Shown here: piece by piece, positions 61,042 through 64,000 of the stretch
Layout of the letters: each line of letters opens with the position of its first letter
How positions within the stretch are numbered: the first letter of the stretch is position 1
DNA from: Bacteroidota bacterium
GTDB lineage: Bacteria > Bacteroidota > Bacteroidia > Chitinophagales > Saprospiraceae
Reading direction: 5' to 3'
Assembly: GCA_018222965.1 (NCBI GenBank)
Contig: JAAEZH010000009.1
Coordinates: forward strand, 1-64,000
DNA: 64,000 nucleotides
Made by a program: the position numbers and the translations under genes
The notes under the pieces: model-generated
What the model saw: only the letters and a program-made list of their open reading frames with translations
Database searches by the model: none
Told to the model about the DNA's origin: nothing

Positions 61042-62454
61042 TCAGTTTGCTTCCAGCTCAATGCCGTCGATCTGATCCTCCAAAAACCGGAGCAGGAAAG
61101 TAAGACGCGGCCCCTCAGCACCTGCTGAGGTTATAAGCTGAATATGTGTGTCGTCTTCCTGCACACCAATCAATTCCAACTTGGGATGATCGGCGTGGAT
61201 CATCTCAAAGATACCAACTAATCGTTCTTTGGTGTTGCGTTCTACTATGCCTTCCGTAAAATGAGTGTCTATAAAGCTTCCGGCTTTCGCCGAATGGGGG
61301 TCCTGCACATTTTCCAAAAATGCCTGCGCGGTTTTCTGACGCGCATCAGCCGGAAAATCCTTTAGATTAACTTCCTGGAGTTCTAAAACCCGGGGCGCTT
61401 CCCCGCTCATTACAATGCTCAACACATTCTCACTAATCTCAAACAGAGGAACCCGCGCATCATTGGAGGCAACAAATATGGCACAATCCTCAGAAGGCAA
61501 CCAGTGGAAATCTGCTCGAAAAATTCCATTCCCGCCATTGTGGGCAATGTGCTGACCGTCGTTCATTACCACCCAGCCATATCCGTAGTAGGAAAATCCA
61601 CCGCCCTCATCAACATGCGGCATAAACTGTGCTTTGGTTGCTTCGCCGCCTAGCAACAATCCGTTGCTGAGTGCCTTGTACAGCCGAAACATATCAGAGG
61701 CCGAACTCAATATGCCGCCATTGCCTCGCAAATGCCAGTAAGGCTGCTCACCGTCCCAATTTTTTTCATGGGGTTTTCCCCAATCACTGCCGTCTTCATT
61801 GACGCCGGGCGCTACCGCCATATAATCGATGCCTCTGGGATGGTATCCGGTCATTAGCATTTTGGCCGGAAAGATGACATCTTCGCGCAGGTACTGATCG
61901 TAGGATTTCCCGCTGAGATCTTCTATGATCATGGCCAACAGGCTGTAACCCACATTGGAGTAAGCATAAGAAGTACCAGGTTCAAATTCAAACTCAACTT
62001 TTGCCACCCGTTGCAAATACTCATCCCGGTCAATGGCTTCAAAGTCGGGACCAAGTGCTCCCGGCAAACCAGCCGAATGCGTAAGAAGCTGATGAATGGT
62101 GATTTTGCCTTTCTCCTCCGGCAAGCCTTCAAAATATTGAGAAAGGGGATCCTGTACCGACAACTTACCAGCTTCAGATAACTTCAGAATGGCTGTTGCG
62201 GTAAAAGGTTTGGCGATACTTCCAATATCAAATAAGGTGTTGACGTCAATGGCCAGTTCGCTTTCGGCGTCTACCATTCCATACCCTTCCATCACCAGGG
62301 GTTTACCTCCCTGAGCGACCATCACAACACCACTAAAGCCCTCTTCTCCGGCCAGGTAATCTTTTACAATTTGCCCCAGGTCAGAGTCAGGAGATTGTGC
62401 GATTGCCATAAAGGGCAGAAAAAATAATGCTAAGAATAAGTACTTCAAATCCAT
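61042..62454 (-). CDS. Beta-lactamase-family serine hydrolase (class C/DD-peptidase type)
   Basis: 470 residues with signal peptide 1-19 (LPFMAIAQ). SxxK motif GSIAKPFTATAIL, YxN motif YAYSNVGYSLL and HNGGNGIF as third motif, followed by a C-terminal lipocalin-like domain of about 100 residues. Such proteins are esterases, DD-carboxypeptidases or D-aminopeptidases rather than true beta-lactamases. Periplasmic or secreted. Confidence 0.85.
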   Translation of the reverse strand: MDLKYLFLALFFLPFMAIAQSPDSDLGQIVKDYLAGEEGFSGVVMVAQGGKPLVMEGYGMVDAESELAIDVNTLFDIGSIAKPFTATAILKLSEAGKLSVQDPLSQYFEGLPEEKGKITIHQLLTHSAGLPGALGPDFEAIDRDEYLQRVAKVEFEFEPGTSYAYSNVGYSLLAMIIEDLSGKSYDQYLREDVIFPAKMLMTGYHPRGIDYMAVAPGVNEDGSDWGKPHEKNWDGEQPYWHLRGNGGILSSASDMFRLYKALSNGLLLGGEATKAQFMPHVDEGGGFSYYGYGWVVMNDGQHIAHNGGNGIFRADFHWLPSEDCAIFVASNDARVPLFEISENVLSIVMSGEAPRVLELQEVNLKDFPADARQKTAQAFLENVQDPHSAKAGSFIDTHFTEGIVERNTKERLVGIFEMIHADHPKLELIGVQEDDTHIQLITSAGAEGPRLTFLLRFLEDQIDGIELEAN

Positions 62455-62540
62455 TGGTTCTTTTGTTTTTCTTTAAAATACGAAAACATTCGTACTTATA
62501 GAGTGTCACACAATTCAAAGGTTGCATGTAGAACGAACAA

Positions 62541-62575
62541 AGGCCTTAGTATGCACTGCATGCAAACTAAGGCCT
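62541..62575 (-). terminator. Terminator of rpsU
   Basis: AGGCCTTAGT (62541-62550) and ACTAAGGCCT (62566-62575), 15-base loop; on the minus strand followed by TTGTT. It sits 33 bases past the rpsU stop. Confidence 0.75.
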
Positions 62576-62607
62576 GACACCAAAATGGCTTGTCAAATGA
62601 GGATTGA

Positions 62608-62799
62608 CTAGCCCTGGGTGTTGTATTTTTTATTCAGGTAAACAGCCTTCAAAACTTCATGACGGCGCTTCACAGAAGGCTTCACGAAATTTTTGCGACG
62701 GTTCAACTCCTGACGAAGCTGTGTCTTCTGGTGTTTGCGTTTGTAACGCTTGAGAGCGCGATCAATGCTCTCGTCATCTTTTACATTGATAATTAACAT
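62608..62799 (-). CDS. rpsU: 30S ribosomal protein bS21
   Basis: 63 residues: MLIINVKDDESIDRALKRYK followed by a basic RRKNFVKPSVKRRHE block and AVYLNKKYN, typical of bS21 in Bacteroidota. The 5' leader has only a weak AAGAG and a small CCGGA/TCCGG hairpin (62826-62838). bS21 helps mask the anti-Shine-Dalgarno in related species, which would fit the scarcity of strong SD sites in this window. Confidence 0.95.
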   Translation of the reverse strand: MLIINVKDDESIDRALKRYKRKHQKTQLRQELNRRKNFVKPSVKRRHEVLKAVYLNKKYNTQG

Positions 62800-62879
62800 G
62801 TACTCTTATTTTGTTGATCAAAGCCCCGGAATATCCGGTATAAAAACACTCTGATCCTCGTTTTTCAATTATCGGAACG

Positions 62880-62887
62880 CAAAAATA
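62880..62887 (-). promoter_or_regulatory. -7 box of rpsU
   Basis: TATTTTTG on the minus strand fits TAnnTTTG, 80 bases before the ATG at 62799; the leader would hold the hairpin at 62826-62838. No clear -33 box. Confidence 0.35.
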
Positions 62888-62921
62888 ATACAAAAAACCG
62901 ATTCTGCCAGAAAAAATTTAA

Positions 62922-62969
62922 AAAAGCCCAACTCCTGCCTGGAGTCGGGCTTTCGGGTGGTCCCACTAG
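62922..62969 (-). repeat. Inner 48-bp direct repeat (tRNA 3' end + terminator)
   Basis: Identical to 63349-63396 over all 48 bases. It contains a copy of the tRNA-Met terminator hairpin (AAAGCCC-ACTCC / GGAGT-GGGCTTT at 62923-62953) and the first part of the tRNA 3' end. Confidence 0.95.
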
Positions 62970-62997
62970 TCCCGATAGCTATCGGGACGAACCTAGG
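62958..62997 (-). pseudogene. tRNA-Met 3' remnant with inserted 18-bp palindrome
   Basis: Matches the acceptor and T-arm part of tRNA-Met (63385-63410). Where the real tRNA has GGCT, this copy has TCCCGATAGCTATCGGGA (62970-62987), a perfect 18-bp palindrome; CGAACCTAGG then continues identically before the homology ends. It cannot form a full tRNA. Confidence 0.85.
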
Positions 62998-63025
62998 AAA
63001 TAGCCGTTGAGAATATAATTGTCTA

Positions 63026-63322
63026 TCAGGAATATCGCTCCAAGAGCTTTTCTCGCATCTCCGGGTACTTATTCAAATTCTCTATGTACTTCCGGCTTTT
63101 CATTTGCTTGATATGCTGTTCCACATCCATCGCCTGCTGCCTGCTCCCACAAGGCATTTCGACATATAACTTCCAGGGCTTCCCTCGCCTGGTATATTTC
63201 TTTTCGTAATAATCCGTGTTATGACGGTGCAGCCGGGTTTCAGCAGTCTCAGAAGTATGCCCAACGTAATACCTATCTATACTTTCACTGTAAAGGATAT
63301 ATACGCAATATGAAGCTGACAT
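63026..63322 (-). CDS. GIY-YIG endonuclease-like protein
   Basis: About 98 residues from the ATG at 63320-63322; a TTG at 63358 could extend it by 12 residues but would start inside the direct repeat. Family motifs: VYI (7-9) for GIY, YVG (19-21) for YIG, catalytic Arg 30 (RLHRHN) and Glu 68 (MDVEQHIK). These are UPF0213/UvrC-N-type single-domain nucleases, with no visible DNA-targeting domain. It is enclosed by two identical 48-bp repeats of the tRNA-Met 3' end, suggesting a mobile or homing-like element. Confidence 0.85.
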   Translation of the reverse strand: MSASYCVYILYSESIDRYYVGHTSETAETRLHRHNTDYYEKKYTRRGKPWKLYVEMPCGSRQQAMDVEQHIKQMKSRKYIENLNKYPEMREKLLERYS

Positions 63323-63348
63323 CTGTAGCACTTTGTCTACTATAAAAT

Positions 63349-63396
63349 AAAAGCCCAACTCCTGCCTGGAGTCGGGCTTTCGGGTGGTCCCACTAG
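63349..63396 (-). repeat. Outer 48-bp direct repeat at tRNA-Met 3' end
   Basis: Same 48 bases as 62922-62969, overlapping the real tRNA 3' end by 12 bases and covering its terminator (63350-63380, one mismatch in a 13-bp stem). Distance between copies is 427 bases. Confidence 0.95.
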
Positions 63397-63458
63397 GGCT
63401 CGAACCTAGGACCCACTGATTATGAGTCAGTTGCTCTAACCAACTGAGCTATGGGACC
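63385..63458 (-). tRNA. tRNA-Met (CAT anticodon)
   Basis: 74 bases on the minus strand, no encoded CCA. Acceptor 7 bp GGTCCCA/TGGGACC, D-arm GCTC/GAGC, anticodon arm ACTGA-CTCATAA-TCAGT, variable loop GGGTC, T-arm CTAGG-TTCGAGC-CCTAG, discriminator A. Anticodon CAT; probably elongator Met, though an Ile-type CAT tRNA (lysidine-modified) cannot be excluded. A TAACTTTG promoter is upstream. Confidence 0.93.
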
Positions 63459-63520
63459 TAAAACTGTAATTGGAACTATTTAACTAAAAATTCATTCCAA
63501 TGGTTCCGTTGAACCGGACG

Positions 63521-63551
63521 CAAAGTTACATCTTTGATTCTTCCTTTGCAA
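63521..63551 (-). promoter_or_regulatory. tRNA-Met promoter
   Basis: Minus strand: TTG (63549-63551), 20-base spacer, TAACTTTG (63521-63528), 63 bases before the tRNA 5' end. Both boxes and spacing fit the Bacteroidota consensus, the best-spaced pair in the window. Confidence 0.6.
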
Positions 63552-63560
63552 AAAACTTTT

Positions 63561-64000
63561 ATGCCGCTCAAAAATATCATCTTCGATCTGGGAAATGTAA
63601 TCATCGACCTCGATATCCCCGCCACTGAAAACGAACTCAGAAAACTACTGGGCCCCGCTTTCAAAGGCTCTTTTCAAAAAAATGAACAACATGGTATTTT
63701 TCGGGACTACGAACTGGGACTGATTACCGAGGATCAGTTTATCCGGGGATTCCGGGAAATACTGGGACAAAACATCCCCGCAAAAGAAATCATTCGCATC
63801 TGGAATGCCCTGCTGGCCGGCATTACCAAAGAACGTTTTGAACTACTGGAAAACCTCCGAAATGACTATCGCGTTTTCCTGCTTAGCAATACCAATTACA
63901 CCCACATACAATGGGTCTATAAGTACCTGAAAGAAACCTGGAATATCACAGACTGGGATAATCGATTCTTCGATAAGCCCTACTACTCCCACGAAATCAA
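63561..64000 (+). CDS. HAD-family phosphatase, partial (3' end outside window)
   Basis: Open from ATG 63561 to the window edge, 146 codons seen. N-terminal motif I is FDLGNVIIDLD (8-18), with the nucleophile Asp; motif II is LLSNTN (about 107-112). It resembles the YihX-type sugar-phosphate phosphatases. The rest lies beyond the window. Substrate unknown. It is divergent from tRNA-Met. Confidence 0.82.
   Translation, partial: MPLKNIIFDLGNVIIDLDIPATENELRKLLGPAFKGSFQKNEQHGIFRDYELGLITEDQFIRGFREILGQNIPAKEIIRIWNALLAGITKERFELLENLRNDYRVFLLSNTNYTHIQWVYKYLKETWNITDWDNRFFDKPYYSHEI

Follow-up and report, generated by a model that had tools for sequence, protein, structure and literature searches.

GIY-YIG nuclease genes lodged between an intact tRNA gene and its broken duplicate: a candidate family of homing-type elements in Bacteroidota

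How does a nuclease gene come to lie between two copies of the same tRNA 3' end, and does such an arrangement reflect a mobile element? The question is raised by a locus in a 64,000-nucleotide stretch of a Bacteroidota contig, the whole of which is called here the window. On the minus strand, an intact tRNA gene is followed by a terminator, a GIY-YIG nuclease gene, a palindrome-bearing tRNA remnant and an identical second terminator (Table 1). As reported in the initial annotation, two 48-bp direct repeats (62922-62969 and 63349-63396) carry the tRNA 3' end and its terminator; these repeats are 100% identical and lie 427 bp apart. The same annotation had described an intact outer tRNA and an inner T-arm remnant, and this is what we observed at 62956-62999, where, in the inner copy, the palindrome takes the place of the T-loop bases AGCC (plus-strand GGCT). 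The nuclease reading frame starts at an ATG at 63320-63322, from which 98 residues are counted; the mechanically defined ORF has 110 residues as it begins at an upstream TTG. This gene is the sole ORF of at least 60 aa between the repeats, where no integrase gene is present. As the two tails of the window are identical, a tandem duplication and a replaced tail would look the same there.

Table 1. Features of the locus, with positions counted from the first nucleotide of the window.
Feature	Position	Strand	Evidence
Intact tRNA gene, CAT anticodon	63383..63458	minus	ARAGORN; Rfam tRNA, 73.2 bits
Terminator hairpin, first copy, 3' of the intact tRNA	63349..63381	minus	14-pair stem with T tail; inside the 48-bp repeat
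GIY-YIG nuclease gene, 98 residues	63026..63322	minus	PF01541, E 5.6e-11; AlphaFold model, pLDDT 92.4; invariant residues
Pseudo-tRNA tail with a second T arm and 3' end, split by the palindrome	62956..62999	minus	Sequence; 48-bp repeat
18-bp perfect palindrome TCCCGATAGCTATCGGGA, replacing 4 nt of the T loop	62970..62987	no strand	Genome-wide family; recurs in pseudo-tRNAs of relatives
Terminator hairpin, second, identical copy, 3' of the pseudo-tRNA	62922..62954	minus	48-bp repeat; hairpin fold with 14-pair stem

The tRNA gene had been annotated as tRNA-Met. ARAGORN indeed labels it Met(CAT); however, its closest E. coli match is annotated as tRNA-Ile, and ARAGORN labels that E. coli tRNA Met(CAT) as well. 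One kind of isoleucine tRNA reads CAU, and it is essential. Given this E. coli counterpart, itself with a CAT anticodon, the window tRNA is probably this CAU-reading isoleucine tRNA. No second close copy shows in the genome, the next match being a tRNA-Lys (82% over 71 bases). The window tRNA is contiguous, and no match to group I introns (RF00028) was found at E values up to 1 within 62000-64000.

The window protein matches PF01541 with 43 bits for a cut-off of 22.6, in agreement with the annotated GIY-YIG gene between the repeats. Residues Y7, Y18, G20, R29, H33 and E67 are invariant in 34 aligned sequences, and we take this Y, Y-G, R, H, E set to be of the active-site type. AlphaFold modelled a confident GIY-YIG fold; the five best PDB matches of the model are all GIY-YIG proteins, none with an E value below 0.001. 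The nearest solved structures are the UPF0213 protein 1zg2 (E 6.7e-3; E 6e-4 in a profile search) and Slx1, a branched-DNA nuclease (6sei/6seh), so that proteins of the UPF0213 type and Slx1 are its nearest fold relatives, with modest E values. On these grounds the protein can be placed in the GIY-YIG superfamily as a predicted nuclease. Known GIY-YIG homing enzymes carry a separate DNA-binding part, for which 98 residues leave no space. We computed dN/dS for 20 pairs of nuclease genes, one of which was saturated: values were 0.05-0.09 in six between-species pairs (at the tRNA-Val site described below), 0.10-0.40 within arrays (0.40 for L073) and 0.12-0.60 in the other five pairs (0.60 for L158/L171). 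These values point to a nuclease mostly under purifying selection; some copies are dead or decaying, with in-frame stops in genome G236. A phage or plasmid origin was considered and rejected: the window protein has no tblastn match at E 1e-3 among 50,697 phage records, no relative was found in plasmids and viral contigs, no PHROGs family matches at 0.01, and no PADLOC family matches either.

The initial annotation had proposed looking for GIY-YIG paralogs next to further tRNA genes, each with the corresponding tRNA end; these exist in the source genome (G000) and in many others, and the arrangement is far more widespread than had been reported. Pfam GIY-YIG domains occur at five places in the source genome, in two long and three short proteins. 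Two of the short genes lie directly 3' of a tRNA (the window gene, and one at a tRNA-Asp, L021), and the third lies beside the Asp one, where the order is tRNA-Asp, terminator, nuclease, second tRNA-Asp 3' end with a hairpin in its T loop, terminator and second nuclease. At a tRNA-Arg(CCG) on contig C3 (L354:1050-1341), two tandem palindrome-bearing T-arm tails with repeated terminators are found with no nuclease gene; these are possible non-autonomous derivatives. A further locus of this genome (L046:1460-2250, contig C97), read by eye, holds a tRNA-like gene whose anticodon loop is split by ~270 nt. Upstream of it, its 5' flank together with its first 11 bases is repeated three times in tandem, every repeat lying next to the palindrome, and again there is no nuclease gene; ARAGORN called no tRNA there, and neither the gene nor its insert has an Rfam match (group I intron included).

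To place these loci, 71 stretches were read from 40 genomes (the source genome and 39 relatives), eight short matches being left out. Of 68 short GIY-YIG frames, 33 have a tRNA no more than 250 nt away, all 33 on the same strand as the tRNA; none of the 12 loci fetched around long GIY-YIG proteins of these genomes contains a tRNA. When named genomes were scanned with the window lineage, 297 relatives were obtained; the best 79 loci were kept and stand for relatives of this lineage. An intact tRNA lies within 250 nt in 51 of these best 79, with the nuclease 3' of the tRNA in 33, 5' in 18 and on the opposite strand in none. In 48 of the 51, a further, incomplete copy of that tRNA is found across the nuclease gene, each scoring above all 50 shuffles; the three exceptions (L137, L159 and L175) have weaker or interrupted copies with their terminators. 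Among the 28 of the best 79 with no intact tRNA within 250 nt, several read by eye are array members or contig ends. The tRNAs of the 51 are CAT (23) and Asn (25), the remainder being Thr, Phe and one without a call; further lineages of the nuclease occur at tRNA-Arg, Val, Glu, Asp, Ser, Pro and Ala. In a search of 40 genomes spread across the phylum, a unit was found beside a tRNA in 19 of 28 further loci.

The units, of about 360-430 bp, follow two layouts. In type A, the order is intact tRNA, terminator, nuclease, displaced tRNA 3' part and terminator, as in the window; in type B, the 5' flank and a tRNA 5' part precede the nuclease, which is followed by the intact tRNA. Some type B nuclease frames read into the tRNA: that of L075 ends with ...SRSSAG, encoded by the first tRNA-Arg bases. 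The hosts belong to Bacteroidota in 64 of the 66 loci, among the best 79, that are labelled with an order (Flavobacteriales, Saprospirales, Chitinophagales, Bacteroidales, Cytophagales, Sphingobacteriales and Marinilabiliales); the two others are MAGs labelled Rickettsiales and Algicola. On the nuclease tree, which is weakly resolved, tRNA type requires 29 changes over 97 rows, for a shuffle mean of 56.6; host order requires 26 over 66 rows, for a shuffle mean of 41.2. Both counts are probably too high, as the alignment has few columns. Since these counts lie below the shuffle means, nuclease lineages tend to keep their tRNA and host group and seem to switch at times. In one branch of 15 rows, presumably UPF0213-like, no row has a tRNA in range.

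We then asked whether the same site exists with and without the unit, as the initial annotation had proposed looking for. A divergent HAD gene adjoins the window tRNA, and among 23 HAD loci from 61 genomes this tRNA was found beside HAD in five. The site is occupied in G000 and G001, which belong to the same genus, and has no unit in G016 and G004, of the same family, the fifth (G194) lying at a contig end; as the HAD proteins of G016 and G004 are only 48% and 36% identical, orthology there rests on the arrangement. A better sampled site is provided by a tRNA-Val beside an ABC-transporter gene in another genus, that of G064. From 30 loci fetched, 21 have the ABC gene: units are present in 6 and absent from 13 (including L307, where 131 nt are readable 3' of the tRNA), one is masked and one ends at the tRNA (contig end). 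On the ABC tree, five occupied rows among 18 need five changes, which is the maximum (shuffle mean, 4.6); occupancy does not therefore follow descent. L295, without the unit, and L296, with it, are sisters on this tree (support 98/98). Occupied and unoccupied alleles of one site, a feature looked for in a homing-type element, were observed both at the Val site and at the window site. The unoccupied sites and the copies at other tRNAs favour the mobile mini-element proposed at the outset.

Does the unit bring a working tRNA part with it? The initial annotation had supposed that each insertion restores the tRNA, and the answer depends on the locus. In G226, the order is intact tRNA-Val, one terminator, nuclease, a displaced tRNA-Val starting at about nucleotide 8 and a different, outer terminator. 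This outer terminator is of the native type, which follows tRNA-Val in 6 of the 13 loci that lack a unit. Because the displaced copy keeps the native-type terminator, the element appears, from this comparison of sequences, to have supplied the working tRNA 3' part and its terminator at the G226 site. The G226-type inner terminator lies beside the nuclease in 4 of the 6 occupied Val loci and resembles the terminator 3' of tRNA-Tyr in G270. At the other sites the picture is mixed: both tails share a terminator in L313 (native type) and in L297 (another type), the inner type is found in L292 and L308, both nuclease-less and either relics or natives, and the native outer terminator is clearly readable in G226 only, G236 being masked and decayed. 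The intact tRNA-Val is identical in occupied and unoccupied genomes; the displaced copy is truncated and bears the palindrome.

The palindrome, which had been treated as a local oddity, is instead genome-wide and recurring, and is the most regular part of the system. In the source genome it occurs at 63 places with up to two mismatches, 32 of them exact, compared with 0 for the reversed pattern, which argues against chance. Apart from the window, 39 palindrome-holding stretches were read, two of which have an ARAGORN tRNA (L031 and L060). In these stretches (L022-L060) the palindrome often stands amid GAGTTTG/GAGTGTG repeats, and in G115 amid repeats of the CAGTAGG type. Its place within the tRNA was mapped in 60 loci, and in 58 once L209 and L299, where the T arm itself had been caught, were left out. 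The palindrome replaces 3 to 6 tRNA bases in 46 of these 58 loci, mostly in the D arm after nucleotide 12, 14 or 22 (type B), in the anticodon loop after nucleotide 35, or from the variable loop to the T loop after nucleotide 45, 52 or 57-59. In three loci (L242:751-831, L286 and L288) it stands in place of the anticodon arm, and ARAGORN labels these pseudo-tRNAs tRNA-Lys.

Both the place and the family of the palindrome go with the nuclease lineage. On the tree, place requires 19 changes over 49 rows; shuffles give 32.9, and shuffles within layout type and tRNA give 26.3 with a minimum of 21, so that 0 of 300 reached 19. Family requires 3 changes over 104 rows, for a shuffle mean of 9.9 and a minimum of 8: CCGA/TCGG palindromes belong to the window and Val lineages, TCCGCC/GGCGGA palindromes to another CAT-tRNA lineage and CCTGCC/GGCAGG palindromes to an Arg lineage. 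In two congeners the palindrome lies at different places of the tRNA and the nucleases are 55% identical; a test for separate insertions gave an AU p value of 0.43 on a weakly resolved tree. The palindrome can also land in coding DNA: on contig C44 of G103 (L241:1349-2453), each of three tandem nuclease genes has its GIY-YIG domain broken by the palindrome, beyond which the coding sequence resumes in a different frame.

Taken together, we consider it rather probable that the unit belongs to a family of homing-type nuclease elements, found across Bacteroidota, which reside in tRNA genes and bring a substitute tRNA piece with them. In such a cycle, the nuclease would cut an unoccupied tRNA gene; the break would be repaired from an element-bearing copy, bringing in the nuclease and the spare tRNA part; this part would rebuild the tRNA gene while the old part is displaced, and the host would survive. 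The palindrome would mark the place in the displaced copy where the nuclease lineage acts, and would block cleavage there. The homing reading is supported by the adjacency to same-strand tRNAs, the second tRNA copies, the patchy occupancy of sites, the mostly purifying selection on the nuclease, the terminators of G226 and the fit of the palindrome to the nuclease tree. Several observations speak against it: the intact tRNA-Val is the same as the unoccupied sequence, nuclease-less tails and dead copies exist, dN/dS is not uniformly low, 28 of the best 79 relatives have no near tRNA, and the tree is poorly resolved. The mixed terminators at the Val site weaken it as well, to the benefit of an amplification scenario considered below. 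A bolder version, which we put forward tentatively as a possibility, is that nuclease and palindrome make up a single genetic system, analogous to RAYT/REP but based on GIY-YIG, in which each nuclease lineage would write or protect its own palindrome at a fixed place of the tRNA gene; the scar would provide immunity, the nuclease-less tails would be non-autonomous members and the spare tRNA part would save the host.

A first rival explanation is tandem segmental amplification, in which a tRNA-adjacent nuclease would have been duplicated repeatedly with the tRNA tail, in the manner of SegB, and the pseudo-tRNA would be the leftover end of the array. Arrays of two to eight units do exist: eight tandem units of ~365 bp, at least one with an internal stop, are found in G092, three in G238 and two in several loci. 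Consistent with amplification are also the identical tails in the window, the terminator shared by both tails in L313 and L297, and a short identity, read by eye, that the last bases of the nuclease gene share with the 5' region of the tRNA (GATTA in G226 and G278, GATT in G238); SegB itself offers a precedent in the parts of PMC13096335 that deal with it. However, simple duplication would not leave two unlike terminators, the outer being native in type, as seen in G226, and the variety of tRNA types and the unoccupied sister sites do not fit either. We regard amplification as a somewhat unlikely account of the family.

In a second rival, the palindrome is the driving part: the nuclease would partner the palindrome as RAYT proteins partner REP, tRNA genes would be preferred landing sites and the genomic palindromes would be its products. 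The palindrome was found within -250 to +300 in 66 of 69 window-type units (those of the 79 with enough flank) and in 15 of 751 background windows of the same loci, a contrast that is not blind since the five palindrome classes were drawn up after the loci had been inspected. The clade-specific families and the 32 exact genomic copies, with none for the reversed control, also favour a palindrome-driven system, as does the finding that 0 of 16 fetched loci of the Y1 transposase (Y1_Tnp; 32 matches in 7 genomes) hold the palindrome; a RAYT origin of the palindrome was rejected from these 16 loci. A search of 148 genomes of the phylum detected the window palindrome in 13 of 37 genomes of the class and, at one mismatch, in 3 of 111 others, with 0 for the reversed control. 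Against this rival, G142 has 13 palindromes (at most one mismatch) and only four weak GIY-YIG matches, the best of which falls in a tRNA-free branch, and G068 and G046 have strong nuclease matches and lack this palindrome; a simple per-genome link between palindrome number and nuclease presence was not seen. Moreover, palindromes elsewhere stand outside a hairpin-loop setting: a flanking stem of at least 6 bp was found in 0 of 37 places in G000, 1 of 13 in G064, 2 of 7 in G142 and 0 of 13 others. As these counts are not clearly above shuffles, a general preference for hairpin loops was dropped. We hold a palindrome-driven system to be unlikely.

It appears very unlikely that the unit is a domesticated one, with the hairpin-bearing pseudo-tRNA serving the nuclease as a structured RNA partner, be it a guide, a decoy or a regulator. 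The stretch 3' of the nuclease gene is strongly structured (z -4.4), mainly through the terminator and the palindrome, and the protein is mostly under purifying selection; but the second copy is truncated at its 5' or its 3' side, the place of the palindrome varies, and presence is patchy between sisters. Finally, duplicated tRNA 3' ends are a typical feature of att sites, a link drawn in the initial annotation. That the unit is an ordinary remnant of an old tRNA array or of the att site of an integrase is highly improbable, with no other ORF of at least 60 aa between the repeats. As a general account this reading is contradicted by the recurrence of the arrangement at many tRNAs, with tRNA 3' parts in some loci and 5' parts in others.

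If the homing reading is true, a unit of ~400 bp would be among the smallest parasitic units with an enzyme of their own. Fungal mitochondria already harbour selfish elements that disrupt a gene and restore its working end; the bacterial tRNA version would be phylum-wide, would put many small Bacteroidota GIY-YIG genes into context, and would offer a simple test bed for the start of homing, the survival of the host and the origin of short genomic palindromes. It also calls for caution in tRNA annotation: ARAGORN labels pseudo-copies as Lys, Glu or unknown tRNAs, and such calls in Bacteroidota may be false. In the literature searched, we found no description of tRNA-nested GIY-YIG units in Bacteroidota or of this palindrome.

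Among known systems, group I introns with homing endonucleases in tRNA genes are parasitic DNA of comparable habit. Matches to RF00028 were obtained in L091:1642-1902 (77.7 bits; G001, a congener) and L132:2909-3121 (63.7 bits), and read by eye both introns split the anticodon loop of a unit-bearing CAT tRNA. The likeness lies in the parasitism of the same tRNA, as in the congener's copy; unlike in such introns, the nuclease gene lies outside the intron, and the window tRNA is intron-free. A group I intron and a nuclease unit in one tRNA gene are possibly two kinds of parasite collaborating; collaborative homing is described in PMC3984707. With RAYT/REP, the units have in common palindromes that are specific to a clade, go with one protein family and are scattered over the genome; they differ in the type of nuclease, and their palindrome is absent from the 16 fetched Y1 loci of seven genomes, several of which have other palindromes.

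Two systems come closer. T-even SegB is a free-standing GIY-YIG enzyme encoded beside tRNA genes and thought to amplify its segment by recombination between the tRNA 5' and segB 3' regions, and phage free-standing GIY-YIG enzymes cut their own allele poorly, according to the passages on these enzymes in PMC13096335. As far as those passages go, the units resemble SegB in that a GIY-YIG gene adjoins a tRNA gene and the tRNA-nuclease segment is amplified; they differ in that the window protein has no match in the phage records at E 1e-3 or in PHROGs at 0.01, and in that a minimal GIY-YIG domain on bacterial chromosomes comes with a broken second tRNA copy. Fungal mitochondrial mobile ORFs (Allomyces atp6; Glomus atp6, atp9, cox2 and nad3) carry a replacement C-terminus and displace the native end, and that of Glomus atp9 encodes a GIY-YIG enzyme, as set out in the relevant sections of PMC3630166. 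Within what these sections describe, the parallel lies in a homing-type nuclease gene in a host gene and, as the G226 site suggests amid mixed terminators elsewhere, in a replacement 3' part with the native 3' part beyond the nuclease. The differences are the bacterial hosts, the tRNA targets, the size of ~360-430 bp, the tandem arrays and the palindrome in the displaced copy. By analogy, the Bacteroidota units seem to work like the fungal mobile ORFs and to grow like the SegB segment. The principle of breaking and restoring a gene is known already; the palindrome is the part that may prove new in kind.
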